NCBI GenBank assembly: GCA_900318685.1
Contig: ONLL01000025.1
Coordinates: 1 to 64,000, forward strand
Reading direction: 5' to 3'
Length of the DNA stretch: 64,000 nucleotides
DNA from: an uncultured Prevotellaceae bacterium
Lineage (GTDB): Bacteria; Bacteroidota; Bacteroidia; Bacteroidales; Bacteroidaceae
A program made the translations under genes and the position numbers. Numbering within the stretch: position 1 is the stretch's first letter; each line of letters begins with the position of its first letter. Below are positions 21,306 to 51,775 of this stretch, piece after piece. Under the pieces are notes generated by a model, which was not told where the DNA came from, searched no databases, and saw only the letters and a list, made by a program, of their open reading frames with translations.

Positions 21306-21462
21306 CGGCAAATATATCAATTGCACAATACCTAAAAACGAGTGTTTTTAACCATTACAAACCTATACCGTCCACCAAAAGCAGATTAACACTAAGTAGG
21401 TATTTCCCTCAGTGTTGATGCTATGTACCTTGCACCATGCTATTTGTCACTCTGAACCACTC

Positions 21463-22375
21463 CCCTGAATCAGGGTACTGCTTTTGCCCTGAATCACTGC
21501 GCTGATTCAATGCACTGGTTGCTCTGAAGGCCGCACTGATTCAGTGCTCCCTTTCTGCCATAAGCCGAAAAGCGGCCAGTGCGCTCCAAGCTGGAATCGC
21601 AAAACGCGAAGTCAGGCCAAATACCACCCTCCCAATTTGGGAGAGTGGTTCAGACCTGGTCCGACAAATCGTCGGATCAGCTTCAGCTGGCACAAGATGC
21701 TGCGATTTTATTGCCTAACGAAAAGTCAGCTGCAGAGAAAGTACCAGTGCATGTGAACGCACATCTGCGTTCACATCGATAAAGGCCTCAAGGGAAATTT
21801 TTCCTGCGGCCATTGGCTATGACTCCCTAAAACAGGGACTCATCGGCTTGGGGGCCTCCTCATGCAAGACAGAGCTGACCCGGCAAATCGCCGACTCAGG
21901 TGCAGCTCCAACAAAGGGAGTCACGATTCGTTACCCCCTCGATCGGCGACGGTGAACAAATCGTTCACCGTTGGCCAATAACCGCAAGGGGTCGGCAAAT
22001 CACCGACCCCCTGACATTGCAAGATGAAGCACCATCGCGATTCGCGATACTGCCTTTCGAGCCCTGACTCGACAAGGACGCAAATTTGCGTTCTTGCAAT
22101 CCGAAGCAGTGCCCTGAATCAGGGCAGTGCCTTATCGGCTGATGAAGATGGCCCGCGTATTCCTCTGCATTGACCTGACAGAACGATTCGTTCTCCCAGC
22201 TCGTCTACTTGCCGATAGAGGGGGAGGCGAATCGCCCATCCCTTTACCCTTACATAGTCAGACCAAGCACCGTCGCAATTCGCGACGGTGCTTTCCGAGC
22301 CTGCATGGATGAAAGGTCAACGGATGCAGATTTGCGTCGATGACCGTACGAAACATACAGTCATCGGCTCGATGA
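21463..22375. repeat. Array of about twenty short palindromes with AAATC/ATT/AAT loops
   Basis: Clear examples (stem, loop): 21533-21547 GCACTGA; 21624-21648 with CTCCCAA; 21660-21676 TCCGAC, loop AAATC; 21751-21776 ATGTGAACGCA, loop CATC; 21819-21843 with one mismatch; 21881-21893 CGGC, loop AAATC; 21947-21973, loop AAATC; 21988-22010 GGGGTCGG; 22034-22048 ATCGCG, loop ATT; 22073-22096; 22110-22126; 22180-22194 AGAACG, loop ATT; 22226-22236 GGCG, loop AAT; 22266-22292 AGCACCGTCGC, loop AATTC; 22323-22338 with a G-T wobble; 22361-22375. Stems differ from each other while loops are similar. Confidence 0.85.
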
Positions 22376-22490
22376 AAGGAGCATACATCATCTGATCGAG
22401 ACACCGCCTGAGACTCAATCACAGGAGGAGCTGATTCAACTTGAACTTGCGTTTTCAGCGTAACTGTCGTAAAAATACGTAAGTTACGTG

Positions 22491-22682
22491 GCATAACAAA
22501 AAAACAAAAACAAAATAACAAAAAGGGGATATTTATCCATCTAATATAATATATATTATAATATATATTATATTAGAACCATATTCAAATTATGTTAAAA
22601 GTTGTAAATGTCATACGACTTTATTTACGTGATTTGCAAAGTCGGTCATTTGTTTTTGTTTTTTTGTTTTTTTTGTTATGCG
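22491..22682. repeat. 36-bp perfect AT palindrome between inverted A/T-tract arms
   Basis: Positions 22541-22576 are a perfect 36-bp inverted repeat of A and T ending in CTAATAT/ATATTAG. It lies between GCATAAC plus A-tracts (22490-22525) and T-tracts plus GTTATGC (22651-22682), which are complementary to each other. A further hairpin, CGTAAC/GTTACG, lies at 22459-22488. Confidence 0.85.
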
Positions 22683-22730: not shown

Positions 22731-22850
22731 AAGACAACTGGGACAACAATTAAAACAAGAAAGAGTTCTTGCCTTGCAAGCGAGCAGAGCTCGAGCGGTC
22801 TAAGTTCTTCGACTAGCGAAGCGGCAAAGCCGAGCGGTCAAAGTTGTCTT
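22731..22850. repeat. Two-copy interspersed repeat bounded by 9-bp inverted repeats
   Basis: AAGACAACT (22731-22739) is complementary to AGTTGTCTT (22842-22850). Between them two 39-bp related copies occupy 22764-22802 and 22803-22841, both ending CGAGCGGTC. The first shares TTCTTGC and GCAAGCGA with the insertion in the SpoU gene. Confidence 0.75.
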
Positions 22851-22918
22851 TTATAAAAAAATGACTCCAAACGCCCACTAAAAATGAGCAAATCCATGGT
22901 AGTCTCAGGATTTTTTCG

Positions 22919-22926
22919 TAACTTTG
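22919..22926 (+). promoter_or_regulatory. Bacteroidetes -7 box for the lipoprotein gene
   Basis: TAACTTTG lies about 220 bp before the lipoprotein ATG, implying a long untranslated leader. Confidence 0.55.
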
Positions 22927-23079
22927 CAGTGCATTTGAGAAAGATGCACGCGCAAGCAGATTCCACCAGAAGCATGCGAGGCGAGTACCAACGTCGCGAA
23001 AGGTACGGACCGGACAGCTTACGGTGCGCAACCGGAGGCAAACGAAGTGGCCACCGCGAGACCGACGGGATGCACTGCA
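22925..23079 (+). other. Leader region bounded by a 10-bp inverted repeat
   Basis: TGCAGTGCAT (22925-22934) is complementary to ATGCACTGCA (23070-23079). GTGCAT at 22929-22934 can instead pair with ATGCAC at 22944-22949, and GTACC/GGTAC forms an inner hairpin. The 5' arm overlaps the promoter, so an RNA role is uncertain. Confidence 0.4.
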
Positions 23080-50358: not shown

Positions 50359-50665
50359 ACGAAGGGACGTTGTTTTCTAGACGAATGGACGAATGTACCA
50401 AAAACAATAATAATGAGGAAGACATTAAGTCGCTACTACGGTCGTAGCGTGCGGCCCGTGCGGGTTTCGTCTTCGATGTCAAGTTACTGATTCCACCAAT
50501 CATTGAAGGGACGGTCTTCTGATCCTCTGCGCTCGGCTCTGTGAAGGAGACACCATCATGCAGCTTGTTATCACCTTAAAGACTTCGAGGGTGATCTTTT
50601 CAGGGAGTTCTTCCCGCGGAGGACCCTTCTTGAGATTGGGAAAAGTGGGGACTTGTCGCTCAGCA
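50359..50665. other. Intergenic stretch with a possible C-terminal gene remnant
   Basis: About 300 bp between convergent genes. A 25-codon frame at 50413-50490 (MRKTLSRYYGRSVRPVRVS) resembles the end of larger Prevotella surface proteins. Otherwise no gene or clear terminator is seen. Confidence 0.4.
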
Positions 50666-51775
50666 TCAATGAGGTTGCTGGACGCGACAGAGCCAGTCGG
50701 GGAAGCGGTCGATGACGCGCTGGGGCGTGTTGCCATACCATGAGTAGCCGTTGCGACGCTCGTAGCCGATGTACTCGAGCGAGGGCTGGGGACGGCTGTC
50801 GCGGTCGCAGACGTAGGGCTCCTCGGTCTGCAGGTCGTAGTAGCGGGCCCAGATGTTGGAGCCGAAGTGATGCACCAGGCGCCGGTCGCGCTTGCCGTCG
50901 GCATTGACGAAATACTCTATCTGCATGTCTCTGATGACATGCTGCTGTAGCCACTCCACGGCCGACGATACTGCAGTGATGATGCTGTCGGAAGGCTCGG
51001 GCAGCGACATGAGCAGCTCGATGAGGGAAGTGGTCTCGTTGCTAGCGGTGAACGACGGCAGCTCGTAGGCACGGGCCTTGGCGGGGGCGAAGGTGAACTC
51101 GTCGTGCTGCTGGCACCAGACGGTGAGCCGTCCGTCCTTCTTGATCTGACAGCGCAGGATGCAGGAGATGCCTCGCTGGAAAGCGTCACGCGCACGGTCG
51201 TTGTACTTGTCGCTGAGCTTCAGGGCATCGTAGGGAGCCTTGCCCTCGTAGATGTCGCGCAGGAGCGTCATCACGTTGTACATGGCGTTGTCGTTGAAGG
51301 TGATGTGATTGTAGTAAGGCGGGCGTCCCTGACTGTCGTTGGGCCGGAGGGGATAGAACTGCGGCCAGCCGCCATTGGCATACTGGGCCTCGAGCAGATA
51401 GTCGAGCGCGCGCATAAATGCCTTGCGGTGGTCCTTCCGGCCCGTAGCGGCATAGGTCTTGGCCAGGAACTGCATCTCGGTGATGGTGGCGCCATTGTCG
51501 ATGGTGGCTCCGATGCCGTCGCCCTGGATCTGGGCGAGCACCTCCTGCCGCTCACGCAGCTTATCGCCTGAGGCAGGGAGGTTCCAGTCGATGTTCTTCG
51601 TCCATCCGCCGCTGGGATACTGGTATTTCATCACTGAGTCGGCAATGCTCTGTGCCTGGGGCGTGGCGTACCACTCGGCAGGCATTCGCAGCAGGCCCTT
51701 GAACGACATCGTGGGCTGTGCCATAAAAGAGGTGGCGGCCAACAGAGCCACCACCATAGATATTAGTTTTCTCAT
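50666..51775 (-). CDS. pelA: Secreted pectate lyase (polysaccharide lyase family 10)
   Basis: The 369-aa enzyme has a signal peptide (ending ATSFMAQ) and PL10 features: MKYQYPSGGWTKNIDW, QYANGGWPQFYPLR and the DNAMYNVMTLLRDI region with probable calcium ligands. It cleaves pectate by beta-elimination. The start overlaps the CotH gene stop by 4 bp. Confidence 0.9.
   Translation of the reverse strand: MRKLISMVVALLAATSFMAQPTMSFKGLLRMPAEWYATPQAQSIADSVMKYQYPSGGWTKNIDWNLPASGDKLRERQEVLAQIQGDGIGATIDNGATITEMQFLAKTYAATGRKDHRKAFMRALDYLLEAQYANGGWPQFYPLRPNDSQGRPPYYNHITFNDNAMYNVMTLLRDIYEGKAPYDALKLSDKYNDRARDAFQRGISCILRCQIKKDGRLTVWCQQHDEFTFAPAKARAYELPSFTASNETTSLIELLMSLPEPSDSIITAVSSAVEWLQQHVIRDMQIEYFVNADGKRDRRLVHHFGSNIWARYYDLQTEEPYVCDRDSRPQPSLEYIGYERRNGYSWYGNTPQRVIDRFPDWLCRVQQPH

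Follow-up and report, generated by a model that had tools for sequence, protein, structure and literature searches.

Palindromes of a hairpin array in a rumen Prevotella chromosome match the variable cassette of phage Bro-N antirepressor genes

What are short palindromes that pair well but differ in sequence doing side by side in a bacterial chromosome, and where do they come from? This question is raised by an apparently non-coding stack of about 1 kb in the chromosome of a rumen Prevotella (genome of 3.96 Mb in 66 contigs, 87% complete), which lies in the 64-kb stretch of DNA that we analyzed at its full length, hereafter the window. As claimed by the original prediction, which was made from the sequence alone, hairpins are densely crowded in this region. 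Indeed, positions 21463-22375 contain 13, 9, 4, and 3 perfect, non-overlapping hairpins (loops of 3 to 5 nt) with stems of at least 5, 6, 7, and 8 bp, respectively, versus means of 2.53, 0.72 (sd 0.82, maximum 3), 0.17, and 0.05 in 300 dinucleotide shuffles; an equal density did not occur in shuffled sequence. RNA folding of 21440-22400 gave a z score of -9.07 relative to 20 shuffles, and with mismatches permitted, 18 hairpins scoring at least 14 were found in 21441-22400. The loops AAATC, ATT, AAT, and AATTC that had been predicted were all recovered, and AAAAC, AATT, CATC, and GCT were added to them. The predicted interval (21463 to 22375) was correct as to place, but since the matched units span 21453 to 22372, the array is slightly longer than first stated. 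The stems had also been described as unrelated. This holds within the array, as no 14-mer occurs twice in 21441-22480 (8 10-mers and 3 12-mers are repeated), but not beyond it, each matched stem being related to a type of Bro-N gene (Table 1). The sole listed open reading frame of at least 80 aa inside the array is one of 87 aa (22258-22521, minus strand), and we therefore treated the array as non-coding. No tRNA was found in the array region, and no Rfam family matched the 64-kb window at the gathering threshold.

The source of the palindromes was found by translating the hairpins in their context, which led to the Bro-N domain (PF02498) of phage antirepressors, whose genes also carry a KilAC domain (PF03374). 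The palindromic DNA is the variable stretch between the codons for HVDEEDK and those for INESGLY. We scored hairpins along 104 Bro-N genes, 35 from genomes (34 of the genus and one of the order) and 69 viral; the viral genes were taken from the top 80 out of 578 relatives, which biases them towards the Prevotella query. The score peaked 42 to 29 nt before the INESGLY codons, with means of 20.3 in genome genes and 17.4 in viral genes, compared to 6.7 to 11.4 in the remaining bins. The codon position is nearly fixed: there, 34 of the 35 genome genes and 62 of the 69 viral genes scored at least 14 when only Watson-Crick pairs were counted. The palindromes are also in excess of what the encoded peptide would impose. 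Forty rounds of synonymous recoding lowered the mean from 20.99 to 12.56 (sd 0.50, maximum 13.81) in genome genes and from 17.93 to 11.43 (sd 0.32, maximum 12.07) in viral genes, and 28/35 and 44/69 genes, respectively, surpassed the 95th percentile of their own recodings. When 110 genes were collapsed to 39 cassette types (<70% identity), the mean was 19.15 versus 11.21 (sd 0.39) after recoding. Thirty-four of these types scored at least 14, compared to 19.6% of recodings, and 28 of the 39 exceeded their own 95th percentile.

A single Bro-N query matched 1144 of 50,697 phage records. The anchor motif was present in 11 of 15 named phages, and in 9 of these 11 the site scored at least 3 above the mean of the other windows of the locus. 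It exceeded every other locus window in five (Streptococcus SpSL1, Staphylococcus BE21, Paenibacillus Norbert, Lactococcus 62502, and Mycobacterium Brocalys) and was raised without being highest in four more; of the 11, Bacillus PM1 and the gut phage MT838485 lacked the 3-point rise. The palindrome centers are A+T-rich and fall in two codon phases, at -38 in 41 and at -36 in 25 of 96 genes. Unpaired positions in the gene stems comprised A-G (50, the largest class, with many from related genes), A-C (41), G-T (19), and others. Given the two phases and these mismatch classes, palindromy appears to belong to the DNA itself and neither to the peptide nor to the sense RNA; in particular, the lack of a G-T excess argues for DNA rather than RNA. 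Two viral contigs (L384 and L386) also showed a pair of neighboring Bro-N-type palindromes that does not lie in an intact Bro-N gene, the second one judged by eye.

Cassettes are swapped between Bro-N genes with conserved flanks. The cassette, of about 45 to 66 nt, is sharply bounded, with a mean pairwise identity of 0.32 to 0.38 versus 0.77 just upstream and 0.86 just downstream. In 57 of 108 gene pairs whose flanks were both at least 0.75 identical, the cassette was lower by at least 0.2 (in one pair, 85% / 50% / 98% across flank, cassette, and flank). Among pairs of the same length, 14 of 2677 had a cassette at least 80% identical on an upstream flank of at most 62%. Furthermore, double changes in the stems compensate each other: within types, 148 of 169 remained Watson-Crick, next to 359 single changes (387 ordered pairs, which are related, so that the counts are not independent events). 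Double changes made up 0.32 of all changes, versus 0.04 to 0.12 when the partner position was slid by 3 or 6 nt. In the gene copies, pairing is thus kept where sequence is not, as had been predicted for the array, and either selection on the DNA or template switching from one arm to the other probably maintains it.

The closest parallels to this part of our findings are the perfect palindromes, of up to 284 bp, found in the coding sequence of Nematomorpha mitochondria (PMC6649704) and the formation of stems by template switching (PMC8794818). As in Nematomorpha, inverted repeats are maintained within protein-coding sequence. Unlike those, the Bro-N palindrome measures about 27 bp, occupies one near-fixed place in one phage gene family, is hypervariable, and has bare copies in bacterial arrays. 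Among the best-matching titles of the open-licence literature, we found no description of a palindrome within Bro-N genes or of orphan arrays thereof, and the string "palindrom" does not occur in a paper treating a phage Bro-N/KilAC protein (PMC5944126). In the genes examined, this widespread family of temperate-phage regulators thus has a DNA palindrome that is hypervariable, stands at a near-fixed codon position, and is swapped as a cassette. This raises the question of what recognizes a palindrome of which the pairing and not the sequence is conserved, and whether it sets phage specificity.

We then compared the array to these genes. Fifteen units of the window array match Bro-N gene palindromes (Table 1). 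At the threshold for the whole 64 kb, 11 matches held, all of them inside the array and representing ten different versions of the Bro-N palindrome, and the reversed window gave none. The unit of type D-DSLKQGLIDS contains a 21-mer that is matched in 6 viral contigs, in 4 of them within a Bro-N gene.

Table 1. Positions in the window of the array, of its units with the Bro-N type matched, and of the adjoining features
Feature	Position	Strand	Match or basis	Window-wide threshold
Array, about 18 heterogeneous palindromes	21453-22381	none	hairpin scan and folding; mosaic blocks recur in contigs C27, C38, C4, C61	
Unit, K-TTTLIQGTGS	21453-21486	-	88% over 34 nt to L368 (Lactobacillus phage G2-Guo antirepressor)	holds
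Unit, K-TNALIQCPGS	21532-21547	+	16/16 nt	below
Unit, K-LESQIAMSGQ	21588-21619	+	91% over 32 nt	holds
Unit, K-GTLPIRETA	21625-21647	+	91% over 23 nt	below
Unit, K-LTRQIVVSGQ (weak)	21661-21680	+	90% over 20 nt, E 0.003 (weakest of the 15)	below
Unit, D-DSLKQGLIDS	21819-21845	+	27/27 nt identical to viral Bro-N gene of L306	holds
Unit, K-LTRQFTDSGQ	21873-21901	+	90% over 29 nt	holds
Unit, K-GVTKRDTLGG	21914-21939	-	92% over 26 nt	holds
Unit, K-TVNESFSVNG	21948-21972	+	92% over 25 nt	holds
Unit, K-GVGKIPTPGG	21986-22011	+	88% over 26 nt	below
Unit, K-GTVAIRDTA	22029-22055	+	93% over 27 nt	holds
Unit, K-STAPIQGTA	22106-22133	-	93% over 28 nt	holds
Unit, K-LTERIVLSGQ	22171-22206	-	89% over 36 nt	holds
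Second unit, K-GTVAIRDTA	22267-22286	+	20/20 nt	holds
Unit, D-RTKHTVVDSKG	22339-22372	+	88% over 34 nt	holds
C-terminal tail of Bro-N antirepressor-like gene, front part missing	22382-22463	+	frame by eye and C4 block match	
Inverted A/C-rich short repeats (22491-22522, 22649-22681) round a 38-bp perfect A+T palindrome (22540-22577)	22491-22681	none	adjoins array	

The comparison was extended to 15 array stretches, namely the window, four copies from its own genome, and ten from other genomes, chosen by hairpin-pattern match. Against 124 Bro-N gene segments, these gave 369 matches covering 2793 of 9913 nt, versus none for the reversed sequences and 66 matches over 84 nt for a downstream control segment (84 nt) of the same genes; some of the library genes come from loci that had themselves been found by hairpin pattern, and related genes are not independent. 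The match is restricted to the palindrome, covering just about 30 bp. Across 86 units, array-gene identity was 0.85/0.81 within 10 nt of the palindrome center, 0.52 at 10 to 20 nt, 0.28 to 0.32 at 20 to 30 nt, and 0.23 to 0.29 beyond. Given this drop, most units are bare palindromes rather than gene fragments, the exceptions being a few units with longer gene matches (84 nt in contig C4). The array palindromes were no more perfect than those of the genes (21.3 versus 22.1, P = 0.24, for the 84 of 86 units that could be scored).

Five mosaic copies of the array, that of the window included, exist in the genome (contigs C55, C27, C38, C4, and C61) and share blocks of about 90 to 700 nt at 78 to 96% identity in differing combinations; the only frames that overlap the array portions of the copies are short, with at most 132 aa. 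In plus-strand alignments inside 21440-22400, stems had changed less than spacers (55/735, 7.5%, versus 120/1060, 11.3%), and this was so in three of the four copies, C27 being the exception. However, one-sided changes affected 43 stem pairs, compared to only 5 compensated pairs (2 of them at the same site). Constraint on the array is thus weak, and pairing within it seems to be only weakly maintained. Breakpoints between copies were not enriched in hairpins, with both sides in a hairpin in 5 of 33 cases compared to 8.9 under the null, which does not support rearrangement directed by hairpins. Recombination between the copies at hairpin cores was suggested by eye in two neat cases (TCGCGATTYGCGA in loci L120 and L122; GGCRAATCGCC in L122 and the window), without statistical excess, and we rejected it.

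Mixed hairpin clusters resembling the array were recognized in several other genomes when their loci were read. When the whole array served as a DNA query against 149 further genomes of the genus, none yielded a copy; since no more than 3 candidates per genome were scored, distant copies may have escaped. The sequence CCCTGATTCAGGGT was present in 17 of 249 genus genomes, versus 1 for its backwards control. By a script test, 2 of 25 CCCTGATTCAGGGT loci lay inside Bro-N coding sequence and 23 did not, although this test misses broken genes, in which L142 and L156 lie, the latter counted among the 23. Fourteen of these 23 were accompanied by two or more Bro-N-type units no further than 350 nt away to either side. 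We also tried GTNRCGATTYGYNAC, with 9 occurrences in the host genome and matches in 84 of the 249 genus genomes. It proved a weak tracer, since its backwards control occurred in 47 of the 249 (table count) and 19 of the 30 loci fetched had no Bro-N-type unit within 350 nt, versus 11 with at least one. The center GATTC/GAATC was the commonest both in the copies of the host genome (19 of 149 hairpins) and in 20 loci from other genomes chosen by these patterns (15 of 270). It did not rank in the top thirty among the 1031 hairpins of 80 control loci. Outside the genus, one exact class pattern was found in none of 294 other genomes of the order. Bacterial chromosomes thus hold stacks of bare copies of Bro-N palindromes. 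Beside arrays, we observed further classes of palindromes (GACGCTGTGG...CCACACCGTC, GCCCTGTAAGGGCAAAAGC...) that are absent among the Bro-N library matches (L189, 408-434; L191, 5229-5320 and 6044-6180; L199, 4940-5081; L185, 5886).

The original prediction had set the array apart from REP elements, CRISPR, and attC arrays, and the features of all three that we tested were absent. Like REP and BIME palindromes, those of the array are extragenic, many per genome, and clustered; unlike REP families of like sequence, sorted by GTAG/CGTC tags (PMC3733652 and PMC2817692), their stems differ, and there is no family-wide palindrome. GTAG and CGTC foot tags were found in 1 and 0 of 19 array hairpins. 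Transposition by a Y1 (RAYT) enzyme was rejected, as PF01797 had no match in the 87% complete host genome while the control matched in 5 of 14 genomes. In integron attC arrays, hairpins of conserved shape and variable sequence stand in a row, with core boxes RYYYAAC and GTTRRRY. The Prevotella array is alike in this, but its units are about 30 bp, no cassette genes were seen, and no pair of these boxes was found on either strand. CRISPR arrays are likewise rows of units of about 30 bp matching different phages, set between identical direct repeats; here, however, the units are palindromic and all derive from one gene position, and no k-mer of at least 14 is repeated in 21441-22480 as a direct repeat would be. 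Rickettsia palindromic elements also lie both inside and between genes. One family sequence is common to them, whereas the Bro-N palindromes have pairing in common and not sequence.

How did the array arise? At least 11 of its stacked palindromes, and probably 15 or more, match the core of the Bro-N cassette. Our preferred, although tentative, reading is that the stack grew by repeated capture of folded hairpins. Bare units of about 30 nt would have been captured from Bro-N genes one after another, each moving as a self-pairing single strand and not with its gene flanks. They would have accumulated next to what remains of a Bro-N gene, and the array may subsequently have spread in several copies and been rearranged within the host genome. 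Capture of folded hairpins would explain why the units are bare, lie in both orientations, and are of many types. In agreement with it, the array of C4 passes into part of a Bro-N gene immediately after the palindrome site. Against it speak the lack of hairpin enrichment at breakpoints, the array palindromes being no more perfect than those of the genes, the few compensated changes among own-genome copies, and the longer gene matches of a few units, such as gene decay would produce. The exit of bare palindromes from genes is something we infer, as would be any activity of the array. No capture enzyme was identified, the Y1 transposase being the only candidate looked for in the genome. The predicted graveyard of hairpin-making elements came near the mark, but the source of the palindromes in antirepressor genes had gone unseen.

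The main rival, which we consider less likely but far from negligible, is that the palindromes are dyad-symmetric sites for Bro-N proteins or their repressors, with each gene type bearing its own site within its reading frame, and that the array, as a cluster of sites for many types, binds or titrates incoming phage antirepressors. Binding sites would explain the symmetry, and units that are bare 30-bp sites are in agreement with this, as are the slower change of own-genome stems and the signs that palindromy lies at the level of the DNA, namely the two codon phases, the A+T-rich center, and the lack of G-T excess. An AlphaFold2 model (pLDDT 81.6, pTM 0.40) places the coded segment in a predicted beta-hairpin (strands 52-59 and 62-69). 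Fold comparison gave weak matches (E above 0.09 throughout), among them DNA-binding domains (Mbp1 and DdrC) and the Ski DHD; a sequence search yielded no relative with a solved structure. However, the palindrome of a gene had no second copy in the same locus of at least 2.5 kb (best match 17.8 of 31, versus 17.6 in cross controls; 101 genes), nor was a second copy found in four whole phage genomes, and an array with a site or two for each type would be a weak sponge. We prefer hairpin capture.

It is rather improbable that the array is debris of tandem or successive Bro-N prophage genes, whose palindromes would have been mended by arm-to-arm template switching while their flanks drifted. A Bro-N gene tail does directly adjoin the array (Table 1). 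The block 22382-22681 is 96% identical to C4, where the same tail closes a 117-aa frame starting inside Bro-N. Four of the five Bro-N matches in the genome lie in open frames of merely 119 to 169 aa, some near contig ends, the 84-nt match in C4 is what gene decay would leave, and stems are known to arise and to be repaired through template switching (PMC8794818). Nevertheless, flanks are at chance level while palindromes are about 83% identical, compensated changes are few among recent copies, and ten or more types in both orientations within 1 kb would require equally many genes. A bolder and still less probable proposal is that of a CRISPR-like archive without repeats, in which Prevotella would store palindromes of about 30 bp from the antirepressor genes of successive phages as bare hairpins. 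These might act in trans, as decoys or as a source of cassettes, against or with matching phages, and phages would diversify the palindrome as an immunity-type label.

We regard as unlikely that the hairpins are bidirectional transcription terminators recruited from Bro-N palindromes. A TTT run follows on the right of the stem in 40 of 86 array units (baseline in the array, 0.22) versus none of their 86 gene matches, and elsewhere single orphan Bro-N-type palindromes with a T run look terminator-like (L134, L168, and L146, each around position 1500), those of L134 and L168 standing close behind a reading frame. These T runs hint that some orphan palindromes are used as terminators. However, the window array holds only 3 terminator-like sites versus 1.0 (sd 0.9) expected, and fifteen in a row would make little sense. 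In 80 control loci, all 17 terminator-like hairpins lacked array-type loops, and we rejected ordinary Prevotella terminator loops as the source of these. One large structured RNA, an option of the original prediction to which the fold z score of -9 would point, is very unlikely, as no Rfam family matched at the gathering threshold, G-T is not in excess over A-C in gene stems or among the unpaired stem changes of the array (A-C 14, G-T 10), units lie in both orientations, and the mosaic order differs between copies.

Finally, some features around the array deserve mention. The adjoining layout of an A+T-rich palindrome between inverted short tandem repeats, which we take to resemble iteron-type replication origins, was also seen in L120, L122, L119, L123, L124, L187, and L144, the repeat differing by locus (GGGACAAT, TTCACA, CGAATACT, GCAAGTAC, GTCATTA, and CTTACAT). 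A repeated leader-like module at 22825-23079 is present in the C27 and C38 copies and, in a diverged form recognized by eye, in C61; it contains TAACTTTGC, presumably a Bacteroidota-type promoter. Judged by the flavodoxin gene beside the array, the closest named relatives are mostly rumen Prevotella assemblies, and DUF2023 accompanies flavodoxin in 76 of 80 related loci. The right-hand lipoprotein of the window was met in one related locus only, where DUF2023 was not found, so that these loci yielded no syntenic empty site. Elsewhere in the window, another 500-nt bin (50500-51000) contains nine moderate hairpins.
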